Source: Opitutales bacterium
GTDB taxonomy: Bacteria > Verrucomicrobiota > Verrucomicrobiia > Opitutales > Oceanipulchritudinaceae
DNA length: 53,629 nt
Reading direction: 5' to 3'
Assembly: GCA_007134215.1 (NCBI GenBank)
Contig: SLLG01000058.1
Span: forward strand, 1 to 53,629
Every line of letters begins with the position of its first letter. Within the stretch, counting starts at the first letter, position 1. Below the pieces are notes generated by a model, which was not told where the DNA came from, made no database searches, and worked only from the letters and a program-made list of their open reading frames with translations. This document shows positions 3,496 through 17,236 of this stretch, in pieces. A program made the translations under genes and the position numbers.

Positions 3496-4839
3496 ATGAA
3501 CAAGCACATACTCATCGTAGACGACGAGCCGCAGTTCAACGTGCTGTTATCCGAGGTCTACCGTCAGGCGGGCTACGGGGTGACGGCCGTGGGCACGGCG
3601 ATGGAGGCGCTTGCCGCATTGCAGCGTGAGGCGGTGGACCTTGTTGTGACGGACTACCGGATGCCGGGAATGACTGGCCTTGAATTCATCCAGGAGATTC
3701 GCGCGAAGGACGCTAAACTCCCGATTATCATGGTGTCGGGCTACCTCGAGAGCAGCACGGTGCGCGAACTCATTGCCAACGGTGTGGGCGGGGTTTTCTC
3801 AAAGCCGATGAATGTGTTCTCGCTCCTGAGCAAGACGTCGGAGCTGTTGGGAGATGCTGCCGCACCGGAGGGCGCGGCGGGCAAGGGTGATGGTGTTTCC
3901 GGAACCGCGGAACCGCCGCGCGCTGAAGAACCCACTGGGAAATCGGGCCGCACCGATGGGAAGAATACCTCGCGCGCGCCGCACGCCTTTTGGCTTTTTC
4001 CGGGCAAATCCCCCCAGAGCGAGGCGTTTGTGCGCAAGGCCAAAGGTTTCACCGGTTTTTCGCGGACGTTGAGTATCGTCGGCGAGGCGGGCACCGACTT
4101 TGTCCGGCTTTGCGATGCCTTTGTGGGGGCCGACCGGCGGGAAGCGCCGCCGGTGTATTTCGGACCGGAGGACCTCAGCCGCACGGTATTGGACGGGGCC
4201 GTGCGCGGCCGGCGGGCAGAGGGTTATGCGCGTGCCACGGTGGTCGTGCGTGAGGCGGACAAGCTGACGGAGGCGCAGCGCGGCGCACTGTACGCCTGGA
4301 TGGACGGTGTCGACAAAGGCACCGCGGACTTCGAGGCGCGCTTGATTTTTCTTTTTCCCAAGCCGGTCGATACGCTCTACGATGAAGGCGCGGTGGACGA
4401 GGATTTCTATGTCTTTCTGGGCGCGAACGAATTGTCGGTTCCGCCGCTGCGGGCGGTCCGCGAGGATATCGAACTGCTCGCACAGGACCGGCTCGGGGAG
4501 ATGGTCCCCGGCGTGGTGCTGGATGATTCGGCGGTGGCCTTCCTGCGGGACCAACCGTTTGGGCGCAATGAAGAGGAGCTTGCCGAACGGCTCCGCGCCG
4601 CCGTGAAGCGCTGCGAGGGCACGCGCCTGGCGCGCGGGCACTTCGAGGCGGAAGGCCCGGAAGGTGCCGCGGGTGGGTCGGGACCCGGCGCGGGACCGCT
4701 GGAACAAGTGCTTTTGCGGCGCCGGGCGGAGGCGCTCGCGGCGGCGATGCTCCTCAGCGGCGGCGACGCGAAGCTTGCGGCGCAGTGGCTGAAGGTGAAG
4801 CCGGATGCTTTCGCGGCGGCAAACAAGGGGGATACATGA
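3496..4839 (+). CDS. Response regulator with a degenerate NtrC-type (AAA+) output region
   Basis: The 447-residue protein begins with a canonical receiver domain: VDDEP near residues 7-11, phospho-acceptor Asp53 in VVTDYRMPG, and Lys103 in SKPMN. After a low-complexity linker, residues about 165-390 follow the order of a sigma-54 activator AAA+ domain, but the key residues are gone. The Walker A counterpart reads VGEAGTDFV instead of GESGTGKE. The Walker B region reads VVVREADKL instead of FLDEIGEL, and no GAFTGA loop is seen. The later PPLRAVREDIELLAQ segment (residues 316-330) is still clearly NtrC-like. The C-terminus (about 402-442) resembles a Fis helix-turn-helix. I infer a protein that receives phosphate but cannot hydrolyse ATP. 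The stop overlaps the next start (ATGA), so the two are probably translationally coupled. An in-frame TTG upstream was rejected as the start. Confidence 0.85.
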   Translation: MNKHILIVDDEPQFNVLLSEVYRQAGYGVTAVGTAMEALAALQREAVDLVVTDYRMPGMTGLEFIQEIRAKDAKLPIIMVSGYLESSTVRELIANGVGGVFSKPMNVFSLLSKTSELLGDAAAPEGAAGKGDGVSGTAEPPRAEEPTGKSGRTDGKNTSRAPHAFWLFPGKSPQSEAFVRKAKGFTGFSRTLSIVGEAGTDFVRLCDAFVGADRREAPPVYFGPEDLSRTVLDGAVRGRRAEGYARATVVVREADKLTEAQRGALYAWMDGVDKGTADFEARLIFLFPKPVDTLYDEGAVDEDFYVFLGANELSVPPLRAVREDIELLAQDRLGEMVPGVVLDDSAVAFLRDQPFGRNEEELAERLRAAVKRCEGTRLARGHFEAEGPEGAAGGSGPGAGPLEQVLLRRRAEALAAAMLLSGGDAKLAAQWLKVKPDAFAAANKGDT

Positions 4840-6101
4840 GCTACATTCTACTTCTGGACGACGATCTGGGCTATGCCGGGCAACTCCGCTCCATGCTGGA
4901 GGCGGAGGGGTTGCCCGGAGAGGTTACGGATTCTCCGGAGACCGCCCTTGAGCGGGTGAAGAAGGATGCCGTGCGCCTTGTCGTGGCGGATTTTGAGATG
5001 CCGGAAATGAACGGCGCAGAGTTTATCGAACGTACGCGCGCCGTCCGCCCGGACCTTCCGGTGATCCTTGTCTCCGGAAAAATGGGAACGCCGGAAATGG
5101 TCCGCGTGGCCAATATCGGGGTTACGTTTGTCATGGAGAAACCCGTCGTGCGGGATGCTTTCATCGCCCAGGTAAAGCGCTTTCTGCGGCAGGGCGCGGA
5201 GACGGGAAGGGCGTCGGCGAACGGACGTGCCGGCGCCGCCGCGGCAGTGCGGCCGACGGTCGCCGCGGTGGAGTTTCCGGCGGCGGCGGCAGCGACACGT
5301 GCCGCTCTTGATGCCCTGCGCACCGCGCTGGCGAACGAAGGGCGCGCGGCCGTATCGGTCGACGAAGCCGTTTCGGTGCCGCGGTTGGCGCGGTTGGCGG
5401 CGGGATGGTTCGGCGCATCCGATTCTCCCGTGCTGCGGATTTCCGCCGACGCCGGGCCGCTCGCACGCGAAGACGCGGCGCGGAACGGAGCGGAGGTGAC
5501 GTTGCTCGCGGTGACGGTGGATTCGCCAATGCCACTGGAGGACGTCCTCGCCGTGCTGGGCGCTGCGGCGCAGGCGACGGAGCGCGTCTTGATCGTGGCG
5601 GAGACGCCGGTCGCGCGCGCGGCCGGTTGGTTTGACAAGGCGGCGGTGCTGCCGGTGACGGTCGTGCCGTTTCCTCCCGTGGAGGAACGGATCGAGGACG
5701 TTGCGGCGGCCTTCCTCGCGGTGTGGCGGGCCGCCGGGCGGAAAGATCCGTTTCCGTCGGAACTGGCGCGGGCGGTCCTCGGCTACGATTGGGCGGAGGC
5801 ACCCCGCCAGCTCGGGCGGAGCCTGCGGTTGTTCGAGGCATTGCTGCGCCGCGCGCCGGCGCGGCCGGAGTCAGAGTCCGGGGACGGCACCGATGGATAC
5901 TTCCGCGACGTCCTTCCGGCGGACTACGTGCCGGTGGACTTGAACGGGCTGTTGAAGCGTGCGCAGACCCGGTTCCTCCAGTCCCTTCTGGAGGAGACCG
6001 CTGTTATGGAGGACGCGGCGGAGCACGCAGGCATACCGGTGGCAACCCTCGAAAAGGTCGAGGATGTTTCCGAACTCGATCTTCTCTTCGGACGGAGCTG
6101 A
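4836..6101 (+). CDS. Second response regulator with a more eroded NtrC-like output region
   Basis: The 421-residue product starts MSYILLLDDD. It has a receiver domain with acidic residues DDD at 8-10, Asp52 in VVADFEMPE and Lys102 in MEKP. The remainder is Ala/Arg-rich but keeps parts of the NtrC plan: VLIVAETPVA near 251-260 (sensor I-like), a PPVEERIEDVAAAFL helix near 280-294, and LGYDWAEAPRQLGRSL near 315-330, which mirrors the usual YDWPGNVRELENVL. The C-terminal 370-410 segment resembles a Fis-type helix-turn-helix. No Walker A is recognisable. A good ribosome binding site (AAGGGGG) precedes the start inside the end of the upstream gene. The pair looks like an ancient duplication in which both copies lost ATPase function, and they may work together. 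Confidence 0.82.
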   Translation: MSYILLLDDDLGYAGQLRSMLEAEGLPGEVTDSPETALERVKKDAVRLVVADFEMPEMNGAEFIERTRAVRPDLPVILVSGKMGTPEMVRVANIGVTFVMEKPVVRDAFIAQVKRFLRQGAETGRASANGRAGAAAAVRPTVAAVEFPAAAAATRAALDALRTALANEGRAAVSVDEAVSVPRLARLAAGWFGASDSPVLRISADAGPLAREDAARNGAEVTLLAVTVDSPMPLEDVLAVLGAAAQATERVLIVAETPVARAAGWFDKAAVLPVTVVPFPPVEERIEDVAAAFLAVWRAAGRKDPFPSELARAVLGYDWAEAPRQLGRSLRLFEALLRRAPARPESESGDGTDGYFRDVLPADYVPVDLNGLLKRAQTRFLQSLLEETAVMEDAAEHAGIPVATLEKVEDVSELDLLFGRS

Positions 6102-6202: not shown

Positions 6203-6871
6203 ATGGAGACAGAATCAGACAGGCCAGCCGGTTTCTTGATCGTAGAGGACCATTTTATGTTCCGTGAAGTCGTCGCGACCATTGTGCGCGACCGTATCGG
6301 CGCGGAGATTATCGGGGCGGAGGAATCCGGCGAACAGGCGCTGCAAATCTTCGAAGCGGAGCGCGGGCGGATCGATGTCGTGCTCCTCGACCTCGACCTG
6401 CCGGACATGGACGGGATGCAACTCGCCGAAAAGATGGTCGCGCTCGATCCGAAGAAGCGGATCCTCGCGGTGTCGTCGCAGTGTGACGACTACACCTTTT
6501 ACCGTGTTCTGCGCTCCGGGCTTTTCGGTTTCGTGGACAAGACCAAGCAGGGCCTTGAAGAGCTGGAGCACGCCATCCGGGAAGTCCTTGAGTGGCGCCC
6601 CTTTTACGCGGCCTCAGTGCACCAGGCAAACCTGAGCCAGTTGGCCGACCCCAAGGCTTTCGCGAAAATCCTCACGCAGCGCGAGCAAGAGCTGCTCCGC
6701 TATTTCGGTGTGGGCATGCGCAACGAGGAAATCGCCAAGGAGTTCGACCTCTCCGCCCAGACCGTGCAGGGGCACAGGCGCAATATCATGCAGAAGCTGA
6801 GTGTTTCCAGCACGCCGGAATTGATCCGCTACGCGCTCAAGCACGGATTCTCCCGCGTGAGCTGGATGTAG
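6203..6871 (+). CDS. LuxR/NarL-family response regulator
   Basis: This 222-residue cytoplasmic transcription regulator has an N-terminal receiver domain: IVEDH at 13-17, phospho-acceptor Asp63 in VLLDLDLPDMDG, and Lys113 in FVDKTKQ. Its C-terminal GerE-type helix-turn-helix spans about residues 157-199 and contains LTQREQELL and AQTVQGHRRNIMQKL. TTGAGGT lies just upstream of the ATG. It is 101 bases downstream of the degenerate NtrC-like pair on the same strand and convergent with the hybrid kinase, separated by 33 bases. A partnership with that kinase is plausible from position but not shown. Confidence 0.93.
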   Translation: METESDRPAGFLIVEDHFMFREVVATIVRDRIGAEIIGAEESGEQALQIFEAERGRIDVVLLDLDLPDMDGMQLAEKMVALDPKKRILAVSSQCDDYTFYRVLRSGLFGFVDKTKQGLEELEHAIREVLEWRPFYAASVHQANLSQLADPKAFAKILTQREQELLRYFGVGMRNEEIAKEFDLSAQTVQGHRRNIMQKLSVSSTPELIRYALKHGFSRVSWM

Positions 6872-6904: not shown

Positions 6905-9900
6905 TCAGCCCGCCGTGGCGTTGAACTCGGCCTCGAGGGCGTCGCGGAGTTCTTTTTCGGCGCGGTCGTAGGCGAAGATCATCTCCCGCGCGGTATCGAG
7001 GTTTCCGTTGCGCGCCTGGGTGTGTATCTGCCGGGTAACATCCATGATCCCGTGGGCGCTGAGGATGGCAAAGTGGGAGAGCAGGCGGTGCGCGCTTTTG
7101 CGCACGCCCTCGCTGTCGTCTTTTTCCAAATACGCGCGGAGTTGACCGGATTCCTCGCCCAGGGCCGCGAGGTAGCGCGCGACGTGCTCGCGCAGGCGGT
7201 TGGGGTCGCCGCGCGAAATCATCTGCAGCCCCGAAAGGTCGAATTGCATGGGCGGCGGCGCGACGGCCTGCGCCGTCTCCGCGACGGGCGCGGGAACAGT
7301 GCGCAGGGCGTCGCGCAGCTTCGCCTCCGTGACCGGCTTGGCGAGAAAGCCGAACATCCCCGCCGCACGGCACTCGGCGAACTTCTCACGTGTGGAGTAA
7401 GCGGTCGTCGCGAAGATGCGCGCGGGTTTGCGCGGCTTGGTGGAGAGGTAGCGCTGTGTGACATCGACACCGCTCATGTCGGGCAGTTCCCAATCGAGGA
7501 AGACGAAGTCGAACTCGCGCTCGCGCAGCTTTGCGAGCGCGCCGCCGCCGTCTTCCGCGCCGTCGACGAGCATGCCGAGCTTTTCGAGCATCCCCGCCAT
7601 GACGAGGCGGTTGTAGTCCATGTCGTCGACGACGAGGGCGGCGCAGCCGGCGAAGTCGCGCAGCTCGCGCGTTTCCGGTTCTTCGAGGGAGGCTTCCTCG
7701 TCGACGAAGAGCGAGACGACAAAGGAAAAGGTCGCCCCGCCGAACTCATTGGCGGTCACGCTGATTTCGGCGCCCATGCGGTCGGCAAACTGTTTGCACA
7801 CGGCAAGCCCCAGCCCCGTGCCGCGGATCGTGCTCGTGCGGGCGTCGCGCGTGCGGTAAAATTTCTCGAAGAGGCGCGCGCGGTCCGGTTCCGGGATGCC
7901 GGGCCCCATGTCGGCGACGTGGAAGGCCACGCGGGCCCGGTCGCTGACGAGGGTTTCTAGCTCCACGCGCAGTGTGATCTCGCCGGGCACGGCGTATTTG
8001 ATGGCGTTGCCGAGGAAGTTGATGAGGATCTGGCGGATTTTGGAGGAATCGCCGAGAAGCACGAGGTCATGGACCGCGCCGAACTGCTTGGAAATTGGTT
8101 TGCCCACCCGCTCGGCTTCCCACTGGCTCACGGAATACGCTTCGTCGATGAGGCCGGAGAGGCGGAAGGGGCGGTTGTCGAGGTCGATCTGGCCGGCCTC
8201 GATCTTGGAAAAGTCGAGGACATCGCCGATCATCTGGTTGAGGTGCAGCGCGCAGGCGCGCAGCGAGTTGACCATCTCCTGCTGTTCGTCGCGCAGCGGG
8301 CTGAGTGTAAGCAATTCGCTGATACCGACGACGCCGTTCATTGGGTTGCGCAGTTCGTGGCTCATGTTGGCGATGAACTCGCTCTTCGCCGCGTTGGCCA
8401 TTTCCAGCTGGCCCGTGCGCACCTTCACGAGGTGTTCGAGCTGCTGCGTGCGGATGCGGTTCATACGCGAGCGCCACCAGTAAAACGCCCAGAACGCCCC
8501 GCCGATCAGAAAGATATACGATGTGTAGGCGTAGGCGGAGCGGTACCACGGCGGGAGTATGCGGAAGGCGTACGATGCGGCGGCGCCGCGCTCTCCGTCC
8601 GGGGCGAGCAGCCGCGCCTGAAAGGTGTAGTTGCCTTCGCGCAGGCCCGCCAGTTCCCACCCGGGCCGGTCAATGGGCTCGCGCCAGTTGTCGTCGAGGC
8701 CGTCGATGCGGATCTCGTAGCGGTAGGGCATGGGCGGCGATACCCGCGGGTATCCGAATTCAAAAGCAAGGTTGCCCTCCCGGTAGGCGAAACGCCTCGG
8801 GCGGTCCTCGTCGGGAGCGCTCAGAAGGTTTCTACCCTCGTGCACGACGCGTCGGAGAAGGACCGGCGGGGGCGGTCCGGCCGGTTCGAGCGTGTCGGTG
8901 TAGGTCATGAGCAGGCCGCCGGTTCCGCCGATCCACAGGCGGGTGATCCCGTCGTAGATGTCGACGGCGAGCTGCCGCACTAAGCCGACACTATCGAGTC
9001 CCGCGACGGCAAGCGGTGTCACCGTCCAGCCGTCCTCCGCACGTTCCCGCGGATCGAGACGCGCGAGCGTGTGCGCCCTGCCGAGCGGACCGCGCGTCTG
9101 CCCAAGGGCGGCGATAAACGACCCGTCGCGGCCCAGTGCGCTGACCGCCTGTACCTGTGTGCCGGGCGGAAGGCTCAGCGGCTGGAAGCGCCGCGCCCGC
9201 GGATCGAGCCACTTCGCCGCCGTCCCTTCGATGACAAGAATACGGTCGCCGGAGATGACGAGTTCGCGTGCGTCGCCCTGCATGGAAAGGCCGTTGCGCT
9301 CGTCGTAGACTTCGAGGAAACGCGCGGAGTGGAAGTCTCCGGAGAGTTCGAGGCGGATGAGACCGCTGCGGATCGTCCGTACCCAAATTTCCGCGCCGAA
9401 GAGGTGGAACTCCGTCAGGGGCGTCGGAGCGCGGAAAAGGTGATGGGTCTCCAGCACCTTGCCTTCGCGGATGCGGACCGCGTTCAGATCGGTCCGCGTC
9501 GAGTAGACAAACCACTCCGGATGGCCCGTCGGGCGGATGCGGGGCACGTCGTCGTAGTCGGTCACAAGCCGGGTTTCCACGCCCTCGTGATCCATCATGA
9601 AGACCCCGCTGAATCCACTGTAGACAAGCGATGTTCCCGAAAAGGTGGCGCTGAAGGCGTAACGGGAGAGGGGTGTGGACGTGAAGCGCAGGGCGTCACC
9701 TTCCGTGTGCCCCGTGTAGATCCTTCCGTCGGCGACGACAACCGGCGCTCCGTCGCGGAACACGAAGTCACCCGCCGCCGAAAATCCCTCGGGCACCCGA
9801 TGCTGGTAGGTCCACAGCCTTCCCGGTTGCCGCACCACCGCGATTCGACCCTCGCCGGCAAGCCAGAGGTCGCCGTGGCTGTCATGAAGAAACGCGGTCA

Positions 9901-10801
9901 GCGTGCGCATGGGGCGTTCCAGATCCAGGCGACTGACCTGATCGCCATTTTTATTATAGAACAGTAGACCGTGTTCTAAAGTAGGTACGACTGTTAATCC
10001 GCCGACATGGGACACTGTGCCCAGCGGTCGGGCGTCTGTCTTACCGATCAAATCATCCCGGCGGGTGGCTATCAGTCTGTCGCCGTCTAAACGGAAAACT
10101 CCTTTGTCGGTGTAGAAGTGCAGGATTTCTTCATGCTTGGACATCCACAAAATCAGAATGTCTTCCAGTTGCTCCGAGATTCGTTGTTTTGTGAGGGTAC
10201 CGTCTGTGAAGATCCAAACGCTGCCTATCGTGAACAGATACAAGGAATCATCTATCTCTTGTGAAAATAACCGTCGGCCGACATCTTCCACACTCCATGT
10301 CTCAGCGGCGAAACCATCCCATGTGATGAGACGGTCACTCGCAACAAAGGCGATCAGGTTGCCGACTTCATAGATATTCCAGATCTGGTTGAACTGGCTC
10401 GATTCCTCAGGCAATCGCTCGACTAGCGAAACAAACGATATGCTGCCGTCGGACTTGGTCTCCAAGTAACCAAAGTCGTCCAAACTCCCGACCCATACAC
10501 GGTCATTCGCATCGACAAATAGGGCGGTGATGATCTGCAAATCCAGGGAGTGCGATATCCACCCCGTCCCGTCGTAGATCTTGAGGGTGCTCCCTCCCGC
10601 GTAAATCCGGCCATGCGAGTCTTCAGCTAACGCAAAAAGAAATCCGGAGACGTCCGCCTCGGTCGTATCAAAATGTTCAATATAAGGCCTTCCGCTCAGG
10701 TAGTCCGTAAATACTTCCCGGTATGCTGCCTCCAATATAGGTATAAGTGCCCAAAATGTAAAAATCGTACCTGCGAGGCGGTATGTTGCCGCCCCAAACA
10801 T
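6905..10801 (-). CDS. Hybrid two-component sensor kinase: periplasmic propeller, Y_Y_Y, HisKA, HATPase, receiver, Hpt
   Basis: The 1298-residue protein has an N-terminal hydrophobic segment, then propeller repeats of the two-component-regulator type (for example [33 protein letters not shown]). An immunoglobulin-like Y_Y_Y domain lies near residues 640-735 and one transmembrane helix near 757-776. The cytoplasmic part has HisKA with [11 protein letters not shown] (His near 814), an HATPase with [17 protein letters not shown] and GTGLGLAV, a receiver with [20 protein letters not shown] and AKPV, and an Hpt domain with [11 protein letters not shown] (His near 1236). It therefore carries a whole phosphorelay except the final output. 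It lacks the AraC domain common in Bacteroides versions. Start codons further upstream (10876, 10990) would overlap the divergent peptide gene, so ATG at 10801 was chosen. GC content drops sharply in the N-terminal part (about 9,950-10,800). Confidence 0.94.
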
Positions 10802-10853: not shown

Positions 10854-11168
10854 ATGAATAAAAAACTGAGAATCATTGCTTTGGGATCTATTTCAAGCCT
10901 CTTTCTTGCCTGCGGTCTTACGCAAGCGGCGGAACGCATGGATGAAAAGATCGGAACGTCGTCGGCGATCACGGGTGAGGGTGTCAACACGTCTTCAACA
11001 GGTTGCGCCCAATTGCCGTGCTACCACCGGGATTTTAATTCTACGCGGTCCGGGTCCTCAACGGGTTGCGCACAACTTCCGTGCTATCATCGCGACTTCA
11101 ACTCGACCCGTTCGGGTTCTTCGACAGGCTGTGCTCAGCTTCCCTGCTATCATCGGGATTTTAACTGA
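10854..11168 (+). CDS. Small exported-type peptide with three identical Cys/Ser/Thr-rich repeats; candidate multi-core RiPP precursor
   Basis: The 104-residue product starts [20 protein letters not shown]. This is a basic N-region and hydrophobic core like a Sec signal peptide, with a possible cleavage site near residues 25-26. A short acidic/basic linker follows (residues 27-46). Residues 47-104 are three head-to-tail copies of a 21-residue unit that begins [16 protein letters not shown] and continues STRSG. The last copy ends at Asn104, after 16 residues of the unit. Each copy has two Cys, several Ser/Thr, and the metal-capable His and Asp. The start lies 52 bases from the divergent sensor kinase, and a YcaO gene follows after two hairpins. 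I infer that the repeats are cores matured by the YcaO. No family is recognised. A repetitive secreted adhesin or metal-binding peptide is the alternative. Confidence 0.8.
10992..11165 (+). repeat. Three tandem coding repeats, 63 + 63 + 48 bp
   Basis: Units lie at 10992-11054, 11055-11117 and 11118-11165. At DNA level, units 1 and 2 differ at 16 of 63 positions. Units 1 and 3, and units 2 and 3, each differ at 11 of 48. Every one of these changes is synonymous, and the peptide repeats are identical. The duplication is therefore old enough for silent sites to diverge while the amino-acid sequence was held fixed. Confidence 0.95.
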
Positions 11169-11178
11169 TCTGCCATGC

Positions 11179-11213
11179 CTACCCGGTTGAGTTTGTCAGT
11201 TTCTCCCGGGTAG
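11179..11213 (+). other. Stem-loop just after the peptide gene
   Basis: CTACCCGG at 11179-11186 is perfectly complementary to CCGGGTAG at 11206-11213, with a 19-base loop, beginning 10 bases after the stop codon. There is no T-run behind it. It could stabilise the 3' end of the peptide mRNA or be a processing site ahead of the terminator. Confidence 0.5.
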
Positions 11214-11233
11214 ATGTATTTGTGAAATTTCAT

Positions 11234-11271
11234 AACCCGCCCGCATGGGATCATGCGGGGCGGGTTTTTTG
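11234..11271 (+). terminator. Rho-independent terminator between the peptide gene and the YcaO gene
   Basis: The arm AACCCGCC-CGCATG pairs with CATGCG-(G)-GGCGGGTT around a GGAT loop, followed directly by a run of six T. This is the strongest intrinsic terminator in the window. It implies that most transcripts stop after the peptide gene, with YcaO made from read-through or its own promoter. That is a common arrangement for abundant precursor peptides. Confidence 0.9.
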
Positions 11272-11297
11272 TTGGCGTTGAGCGAATCATAAGAGCT

Positions 11298-12320
11298 ATG
11301 GAACACTCGATGATCCTGCCCGGACACTCACCGGCGACAATGTGGGTCGATCCGCCCCGCCGCAGTGTCGGCGCCTACTGGCGCCGGTGGGCGCGGCCGG
11401 TCCGGTCCGTGCTCGCCTCGGTCAATCTCAGCCCCTTGCGCTACGCGCGCATCGGGGTGGCCGACGGCGGACCGGTGGCGTCGATTGACATCTGGCCGAT
11501 GCCGGGCGGAGACCGGCCGCTTTTCGGGGCGAGTGTGTGGCTCGACCCGTCGCTTCTTCCGCCTCCGGTAGAGAACAGTATATACAGCAATGCGGACGGC
11601 TACGGGATGGACGCTTCGCGGATGGTGGCGCGGTTCAAGGCGATTTCAGAGGCACTGGAGCGCTGGGCCTTACGGGTGAAGGGGGAGGACTCCGACCGGG
11701 ATCACTACGGCTTCGATATCGATCCCACATCGAACGGCATGTCGGCCTTTCCCGGACTGGTTTCGTGGCGTGCACGGGACCGCGCGGAGCTGGAGGCGCT
11801 GGAGCGGTTTGTGCTTTTCTCGTGGTGGGAGGGCCGTCTCGACTGCGCCGAGCGCGCGAGTCCGTGGGAAGGTGTGCGGCTGCTGGAACTGGAACACGGG
11901 CTGGGACGGTTCTCGGTGGCCGTCGTCCACCGCACCTTGCCGGAGAGCGGGCTGCGGCTCTACGGGCACGGGGCGGGGGCCACCCTCGCCGAGGCGGCGG
12001 CCGGGGCCTACGACGAAATGCTCAGCCACGGCACGGCCGTGGCGACATACGAGCACCGCGGCGGCTTCACACAGGAGAAGATCGGTGCCTTGGAAAACAC
12101 CTTCGAGCGGCGGGCCATGTTTTTCGCCACGAAAGCCGGGCAGCGGCTCTTCGACGAGCGCGTGGGCGCCGGACGCTGGGCTGCCGTGAAGCGTCCGAAA
12201 GTTGTCTTCAACGGCATCGTTCCCGGCGAGTGGAACCGTTACGCCCACGTTTGGCGGGTCACTTTCGAGCCTGTCTCCACGCAGTACCTCAACCCGAGGG
12301 TCAATTACTTTTTCTGGTGA
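11298..12320 (+). CDS. Stand-alone YcaO-domain protein, candidate peptide-backbone-modifying enzyme
   Basis: The 340-residue product shows three blocks expected of YcaO proteins. The first is SNADGYGMDASRM (97-109) leading into FKAISEALERWAL (113-125), the glycine-rich loop and ExxER helix that bind ATP/Mg. The second is RAELEALERFVLFSWWEG (162-179). The third is GHGAGATLAEAAAGAYDEML (223-242). YcaO enzymes use ATP to activate peptide amide bonds, giving azolines, thioamides or amidines. The C-terminus ends RVNYFFW and lacks the PxPxP tail of many azoline cyclodehydratases. No E1-like/ThiF partner, TfuA, dehydrogenase or dedicated transporter is encoded nearby. A frame-compatible ATG at 11253 lies inside the terminator hairpin, so ATG 11298 was chosen. 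Immediately upstream is the repeat peptide, its likely substrate. The family call is by motif only. Confidence 0.85.
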   Translation: MEHSMILPGHSPATMWVDPPRRSVGAYWRRWARPVRSVLASVNLSPLRYARIGVADGGPVASIDIWPMPGGDRPLFGASVWLDPSLLPPPVENSIYSNADGYGMDASRMVARFKAISEALERWALRVKGEDSDRDHYGFDIDPTSNGMSAFPGLVSWRARDRAELEALERFVLFSWWEGRLDCAERASPWEGVRLLELEHGLGRFSVAVVHRTLPESGLRLYGHGAGATLAEAAAGAYDEMLSHGTAVATYEHRGGFTQEKIGALENTFERRAMFFATKAGQRLFDERVGAGRWAAVKRPKVVFNGIVPGEWNRYAHVWRVTFEPVSTQYLNPRVNYFFW

Positions 12321-15701: not shown

Positions 15702-15788
<87 letters not shown>

Positions 15789-16276: not shown

Positions 16277-17236
16277 CTACTTCTTCTTGGCGGCTTTTTT
16301 TGCCGCTTTCCTGGACACGGGCTTATCCGCGGCCTTCTTGGCGGCCGCTTTCTTTGCGGGCGCTTTCTTCGCCGCTTTTTTGGTGGCCTTTTTCGCGGCT
16401 TTCTTGGGCGCGGCCGCCACTTCGTCCGCCGCAGGCTGCACCTTGACGGCATTCTTCGCCGCCGCCTGGCTGCGGAGGCGTTTGCCGCCGGTGTCGCTGT
16501 CGGCGCCCTCTTCGTCGATGTTATAGATATAGCCGACGCCGTGGATCGTCTTGTAGGCGGTCATAGGCAGACCGTGGTCGTCGTAGAGGCTGCGGATTTT
16601 GACGATGTATTGGTCGAGACTGCGGCTGCGCACGTCGGCGTGGATTCCCCAGACGGCGTGGATGAGGCTGCGTCGCGTGACGACGTTGTTCGCGTTCTGG
16701 TGCAGGTAGGTGAGGATACCGAGTTCCTTGCGGCCGATCTTCTCGACGGAGCCGTCGTCGAACTGCACCTCCATGCGGATGGGGTGCACGGTGGCGCCGC
16801 AGAAGCGGAAGGGGTCCTGGGTGATGGTGGCGTTTTTGGTCACGTGATAATCGAAGGCGGTCTCCGCCCGCCGGAGCACGGCGTGGATGCGCGCGATGAG
16901 TTCCGGAAAACTGAAGGGTTTGGTGATGTAATCGTCGCCGCCCATTTCCAGCCCTTTGACCTTGTAGATCTCGGAGTCGTCGGCGGTGAGAAAGATGATG
17001 GGGACGCGGATGTTGGCCTTGCGCAGGTCTTCGACGAGGGAGAAGCCCGTCTGGTCGGGCAGGTTCACGTCGAGCAGCAGCAGGTTGGCGAAATTATTGC
17101 TCAGGAAGCGGATGGCATTGTGGGCGCGGTGGTAGACCTGTGTGAGCATTCCGGAGGCTTCCAGTTGCTCGGAGATCATCTGGGCGATCTGCTTGTCGTC
17201 TTCGACGATAAGGATGAGTGGTTTCGGTTTTGCCAT
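16277..17236 (-). CDS. OmpR-family response regulator with a histone-H1-like Lys/Ala tail
   Basis: The 319-residue product has a receiver domain (VEDD at 11-14, phospho-acceptor Asp in LLLLDVNLPDQTG near residue 56, Lys in TKPFSFPEL). A winged-helix OmpR domain follows at about 130-240, ending KTIHGVGYIYNIDEE. The last ~75 residues are an unusual tail, about 40 of them almost only Lys, Ala and Pro (for example APKKAAKKATKKAAKKAPAK). This is the composition of bacterial histone-H1-like proteins and should bind DNA non-specifically. The receiver and DNA-binding domains look intact. It is divergent from the MscS gene over a 159-base gap with a palindrome. No cognate kinase is adjacent. Confidence 0.94.
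   Translation of the reverse strand: MAKPKPLILIVEDDKQIAQMISEQLEASGMLTQVYHRAHNAIRFLSNNFANLLLLDVNLPDQTGFSLVEDLRKANIRVPIIFLTADDSEIYKVKGLEMGGDDYITKPFSFPELIARIHAVLRRAETAFDYHVTKNATITQDPFRFCGATVHPIRMEVQFDDGSVEKIGRKELGILTYLHQNANNVVTRRSLIHAVWGIHADVRSRSLDQYIVKIRSLYDDHGLPMTAYKTIHGVGYIYNIDEEGADSDTGGKRLRSQAAAKNAVKVQPAADEVAAAPKKAAKKATKKAAKKAPAKKAAAKKAADKPVSRKAAKKAAKKK

Follow-up and report, generated by a model that had tools for sequence, protein, structure and literature searches.

Whether a short peptide with three identical repeats is the substrate of the YcaO-family protein encoded beside it, and what such a peptide would be made for, is the question raised by a locus of an Opitutales bacterium (contig SLLG01000058.1). 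The window, meaning the whole stretch of 53,629 nucleotides that was analyzed, had been described from its letters alone (the sequence-only reading) as containing a minimal two-gene system consisting of this peptide and a stand-alone YcaO protein. That description is too small, because a hybrid histidine kinase and a LuxR-type regulator are conserved partners of the two genes (Table 1). The favored interpretation, with a probability of roughly 0.6, is a four-part peptide signaling cassette in which a YcaO-modified peptide signal is read by its own kinase. The existence of the cassette itself is virtually certain.

Table 1. Features of the cassette in the window (positions counted from the first letter of the window).
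Feature	Position	Strand	Description
LuxR-type response regulator	6203..6871	+	222 aa, convergent with the kinase; Response_reg 68.4 bits, GerE 62.7 bits
Hybrid histidine kinase	6905..10801	-	Divergent from the precursor; Pfam and family position
Divergent spacer, kinase start codon to precursor start codon	10802..10853	.	Presumed regulatory, from sequence
Precursor peptide gene	10854..11168	+	104 aa: conserved leader, linker, three cores
Leader / presumed Sec signal	10854..10928	+	25 residues; family leader profile
Core unit 1	10995..11039	+	15 residues, starts at residue 48
Core unit 2	11058..11102	+	15 residues, starts at residue 69
Core unit 3	11121..11165	+	15 residues, starts at residue 90
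Terminator-like hairpin with T-run, between precursor and enzyme	11234..11270	+	-25.8 kcal/mol; kept in the sister species G002
Stand-alone YcaO-family protein	11298..12320	+	340 aa; S-E..E-R, E..E-R, and E motifs; C-terminal FFW

The repeat peptide and the YcaO-family enzyme

The three 15-residue units occupy the C-terminal part of the window peptide with a period of 21 residues. They are identical in protein, whereas any two of them differ at 10–11 of 45 nucleotides. A peptide 84% identical to that of the window is encoded by an Opitutales MAG, the sister species G002 (contig JAFIGH010000131.1); its own three units are protein-identical among themselves and 7–10 nucleotides apart per 42. Between the two species, dN is 0.09 and dS 1.77 in the repeat region. 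Within either species the units have diverged in nucleotides but not in protein, and purifying selection thus maintains them as genuine repeats, which bears out the three identical units originally noticed. Tandem Repeats Finder, run on the window, did not detect them, as is expected from the synonymous divergence between units. The window leader has a predicted cut before AERMDE. A lipoprotein reading of this leader, suggested by its FLAC motif, was discarded since that Cys is unconserved across the family.

The enzyme gene had previously been started at position 11253. This ATG falls within the terminator hairpin, and the ATG at 11298 is therefore the most likely start. In the window genus, the terminator may reduce the amount of enzyme relative to precursor.

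Assignment of the protein to the YcaO family holds through its ATP/Mg motifs and its relatives, whereas the window sequence taken singly stays below the Pfam YcaO cut-off (18 against 25.7 bits). All 16 homologues first collected match Pfam YcaO, several of them passing its cut-off with 27.6 to 38.8 bits. Among 43 homologues, little or no variation is seen in the S-E..E-R, E..E-R, and final E motifs, of which the second and third can be aligned with their counterparts in E. coli YcaO. Against the SagD model, the window enzyme scores 20 bits, far under the cut-off of 219. The C-terminus of the subfamily is strict: most members have an FFW-like ending, and a second branch has RF[AV]A. An AlphaFold model of the window enzyme from a three-sequence alignment reached a pLDDT of 40, and sequence searches of the PDB returned nothing useful. 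In 40 genomes with this subfamily, a YcaO search mostly returns this gene alone, so the enzyme is no housekeeping copy of the usual type.

Distribution of the YcaO subfamily

The 107 loci collected for this YcaO subfamily all belong to the order Opitutales; the two named loci are Opitutales MAGs. Of 373 Opitutales genomes sampled, 40 contained the subfamily, as did 87 of 252 genomes of a single family (f14, the family of G142). Class- and phylum-wide genome draws yielded no homologue outside the order, and viral contigs held no relative.

A conserved leader and variable cores

A leader profile built from 18 precursors and applied with a threshold of 5 bits or more identified a precursor upstream of the YcaO gene in 100 of 106 testable loci (82 of 88 outside the training set), counts that are not independent, as the loci share ancestry. 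The same profile found none in 134 upstream regions of other genes from the same loci, nor in 520 shuffled upstream regions. All 100 precursor sequences are distinct, and 77 of them end 60 nt or less from the enzyme. The view that the peptide is the YcaO substrate, first drawn from adjacency and repeats, is considerably strengthened by this co-occurrence within one order, and the enzyme very probably acts on the adjacent precursor.

Two leader columns are strongly conserved (Gly in 97% and Ala in 89%), as is an LDP motif past the presumed cut, and the middle is variable. As read from their sequences, most leaders have a charged start, a hydrophobic stretch, and an A-x-A-like site. The Sec-exported appearance attributed to the window peptide is shared by most of the family, but a classical Sec signal is missing from the short leaders of family f11 and of most f21 loci (8 loci).

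The tails are variations on C-x(2-4)-P-[C>T>S]. A tail Cys is present in 92 of 100 precursors, where the Cys content of the neighboring kinases would predict 21.6, and 82 of the 191 tail Cys follow a Pro. The aligned last position holds C in 80, T in 9, and S in 3 of 93 cases, a figure that the aligner may inflate. Many tails have two Cys 2–4 residues apart; single-Cys and Thr cores also occur. For example, cores of f21 read [WYF]P[CT]EV, Cys in some species being Thr in others, and one genus has AFCDTVCNF, AFTETVCNF, and AFSELPCQF as alternatives. Judged from established YcaO chemistry, an exchange among C, T, and S would be the pattern expected of a cyclodehydratase site.

Cores diverge strongly between close relatives and have been multiplied separately, with different core sequences, in at least six genera. 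Three tandem cores are found in the window genus and in G137 and two each in G994, G1061, and G962; within one genus, G159 has four and G1044 has precursors with three and with five. Conserved leaders, variable tails, and separately multiplied cores constitute the anatomy of a RiPP precursor, and its placement next to the enzyme completes the hallmark of this class. The earlier suggestion of a multi-core RiPP combination for which no description was found is thereby strongly supported across about 100 co-occurring loci, with modification as its presumptive element.

Eight precursors have no Cys after residue 30. Three loci (L118, L207, and L208, from G175, G963, and G962) carry another core type upstream of the same YcaO subfamily, ending in III[KR] and mostly without Cys (PIPPPDDGDIIIR, and AWEQPPGVPPCPGGGIIIK twice); these cores may be modified differently. 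At L165 (G1005), two unlike precursor ORFs stand in tandem, ending 265 nt and 94 nt before the YcaO start, the second having no tail Cys.

A divergent hybrid kinase and a LuxR-type regulator

The sequence-only reading had seen no E1-like/ThiF partner, TfuA, dehydrogenase, protease, or dedicated exporter nearby. This stands for conserved genes of these kinds, but the kinase and the regulator had been overlooked. When the ORFs of 43 loci were clustered, the YcaO protein (43 loci), the kinase (42), and the regulator (37) were the sole conserved genes; apart from apparent antisense shadow frames, the next gene family around the loci occurs in about 8 genomes. Of 103 loci whose contig extends far enough, 101 have a divergently oriented kinase homologue at this site, the exceptions being L157 and L201; a LuxR-type regulator is encoded close to the 3' end of the kinase gene in 76 of the 87 loci with room for it and elsewhere nearby in a few. 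A conserved sensor kinase together with a regulator points to signaling.

The window kinase, whose start was set at 10801 from the family alignment within an open frame extending to 10990, has a propeller-type sensor (Reg_prop, Y_Y_Y), HisKA, HATPase_c, a receiver, and a weak Hpt domain. Among 38 kinases searched with Pfam, 37 combine HisKA, HATPase_c, and a receiver; Y_Y_Y was detected in 19, Reg_prop in 18, and Hpt in 10. Kinases of the Reg_prop/Y_Y_Y type have their sensor half outside the cytoplasm. In a transmembrane scan of the kinases, a motif located the HisKA box in only 21, and a preceding helix was seen in 12. At L091, L095, and L097, the cassette kinase is distributed over two frames that overlap, which may reflect a frameshift, a genuinely divided gene, or faulty assembly.

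The kinases of the cassettes match one another best. In G142 and G008, the best matches of the window kinase are the kinases adjoining the YcaO genes (440 and 343 bits, respectively), whereas the best other kinases reach 256 bits in G142, 222 in G008, and 212 in the window's own genome. In G007 and G012, which each have two different cassettes, every YcaO branch retains its own kinase branch. Divergence of the YcaO protein correlates with that of the kinase sensor half at r 0.71 and with that of the kinase half at r 0.52, values uncontrolled for species history, so that a preference for the sensor half is only suggestive. Linkage to a kinase does not by itself prove that the peptide is the ligand; nevertheless, the peptide is probably the signal of this kinase.

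Conserved genes of several other kinds were sought around the 43 clustered loci and not found: an exporter, a protease, an immunity gene, a metal-handling gene, another modifying partner, or an MNIO (DUF692) enzyme with its partner protein and, within 8 kb, an E1-like/ocin-ThiF (RRE) partner or a dehydrogenase. TfuA is absent from all 40 genomes. Thioamidation of the YcaO-TfuA type, as in thioamitides, was rejected on this ground, which leaves an azoline or an amidine as the expected product.

Other genes of the window lie outside the conserved cassette. A receiver-domain protein (4785-6101) precedes the LuxR-type regulator and has a long C-terminal part outside any Pfam family. An OmpR-like regulator (16277-17236) has an Ala/Lys-rich repeat tail (tandem repeats at 16335-16412), and a tRNA-Leu (caa) at 15702-15788 is the only tRNA detected in the window.

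Proposed mechanism

In the proposed pathway, the adjacent YcaO enzyme would recognize the precursor by its leader, which in most lineages would double as a Sec signal. The cytoplasmic enzyme, using ATP, would modify the C-terminal core. The most likely modification is cyclodehydration of the Cys (or Thr/Ser) after Pro to an azoline, and azoline formation at Pro-Cys in particular has about an even chance of being correct. General export machinery would carry the peptide over the inner membrane, after which the leader would be removed and, in the window genus, the three cores would be freed by proteolysis. Outside the cytoplasm, the modified core would be sensed by the divergently encoded hybrid kinase, which would pass the signal to the LuxR-type regulator. 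This order of modification, Sec export, trimming, and sensing is the simplest reading given an extracytoplasmic sensor, a Sec-like leader, and no linked exporter.

Alternative explanations

The nearest competitor concerns the chemistry alone: the enzyme could install an amidine (a macroamidine or a backbone amidine) in a cassette otherwise as proposed. Stand-alone YcaO proteins of Actinobacteria produce amidines (PMC8442711), a Bacteroidales YcaO produces a C-terminal backbone amidine (PMC10352776), and the Opitutales enzymes have neither an E1-like partner nor a PxPxP tail. However, amidine formation is independent of C, T, and S side chains, so that the Pro-[C/T/S] position and an exchange confined to these three residues suit an azoline better; an amidine is unlikely, while being the foremost competitor. 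The function could also differ. The product might be a YcaO-modified antimicrobial or metal-binding peptide, with the kinase and regulator merely controlling its production and signaling being secondary. Most characterized YcaO RiPPs are antibiotics, and nisin, which induces its own operon, is a model for product-controlled production. The Cys-rich C-x(2-4)-C tails could bind metal, as bufferin-type Sec-exported Cys peptides do, and bufferins respond to copper stress (PMC12452194). Against such a product stand the lack of conserved exporter, immunity, protease, and metal-handling genes in the 43 loci, the existence of single-Cys and Thr cores, and the strong variation of cores among close relatives next to a kinase that is the most constant of the partners. 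We consider an antimicrobial or metal-binding role rather improbable.

Two further explanations would separate the peptide from the enzyme. E. coli YcaO acts in methylthiolation of ribosomal protein S12, and the Opitutales enzyme might likewise have another target, the exported ligand being unmodified or only disulfide-bonded, for which the many tails with two closely spaced Cys would be suitable. The precursor, however, stands beside the enzyme in nearly all testable loci, single-Cys cores and the exchange of Cys with Thr and Ser misfit a disulfide, and the YcaO search of the 40 genomes speaks against a different target, all of which makes an unmodified ligand decidedly improbable. The repeat peptide could, finally, be a chance or decaying ORF next to an unrelated YcaO gene, as the terminator between the two window ORFs might suggest. 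This possibility is negligible: the absence of any amino acid change between the diverged units and the co-occurrence of precursor and enzyme already refute it.

Significance

Peptide quorum sensing is known mainly from Gram-positive bacteria, and we know of no established cell-cell signal in Verrucomicrobiota. If the proposal is true, the cassette supplies one, together with a minimal stand-alone YcaO that works independently of an E1-like partner and uses a signal-peptide-like leader as its recognition element. The cassette also points to candidate ligands for the very large sensor family of propeller-type hybrid kinases, and signal specificity can be tested directly with its roughly 100 natural peptide/kinase pairs, whose cores differ. 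The odds are about equal for and against these loci representing an undescribed signaling class, namely YcaO-modified, exported, often multi-core quorum-sensing pheromones that are private to propeller-type hybrid kinases in a Gram-negative order. In the full-text literature, with most subscription journals outside its scope, no report was found that links YcaO to Opitutaceae or describes either a pheromone made by a YcaO enzyme or peptide signaling in Verrucomicrobia, and the novelty of the cassette is provisional.

Comparison with known systems

Linear azol(in)e-containing peptides of the SagD/TOMM type share the YcaO fold motifs and Cys/Ser/Thr targets with the Opitutales system. In contrast to them, the latter has no E1-like/RRE partner and no dehydrogenase, and its enzyme ends in FFW rather than PxPxP. 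Actinobacteria have stand-alone YcaO proteins that come with a precursor family of their own, e.g., for streptamidine, where the precursor family is likewise tied to one YcaO clade and no E1-like domain is involved (PMC8442711). The phylum, precursor family, and gene set are different, and neither a signal-peptide leader nor a kinase is reported there. Bacteroidales YcaO clusters also place a peptide-modifying YcaO in a Gram-negative group, with signaling proteins near some precursors, but they employ radical SAM partners, GG-type leaders, and peptidase-containing exporters (PMC10352776), none of which is conserved in Opitutales.

RiPP precursors that carry a Sec signal peptide are described as rare; bufferins are an experimentally demonstrated case, for which preliminary work suggests that the signal peptide belongs to the recognition sequence (PMC12452194). 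Bufferins and other MNIO-modified RiPPs resemble the Opitutales system in having a short Cys-containing precursor, a Sec signal (presumed for most Opitutales leaders) replacing the typical leader, and a precursor gene just 5' of the modifying enzyme (PMC12452194). The enzyme here is a YcaO and not an MNIO, there is no DUF2063-type partner, and a kinase and a regulator are conserved instead.

In its set of parts, the cassette is comparable to ComQXPA of Bacillus, which likewise encodes together a peptide-modifying enzyme, a short prepeptide with a variable C-terminus, a membrane histidine kinase, and a LuxR-type regulator (PMC4008528). The modifying enzyme of that system is an isoprenyl transferase (ComQ), and the core has a Trp, whereas the Opitutales loci pair a YcaO with Cys/Thr/Ser and Pro in the core, a divergent hybrid propeller kinase, a signal-peptide-like leader, and multi-core precursors in Gram-negative hosts. 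Having neither ComQ nor a Trp core, these loci are not ComQXPA systems proper, but they follow the same parts logic.
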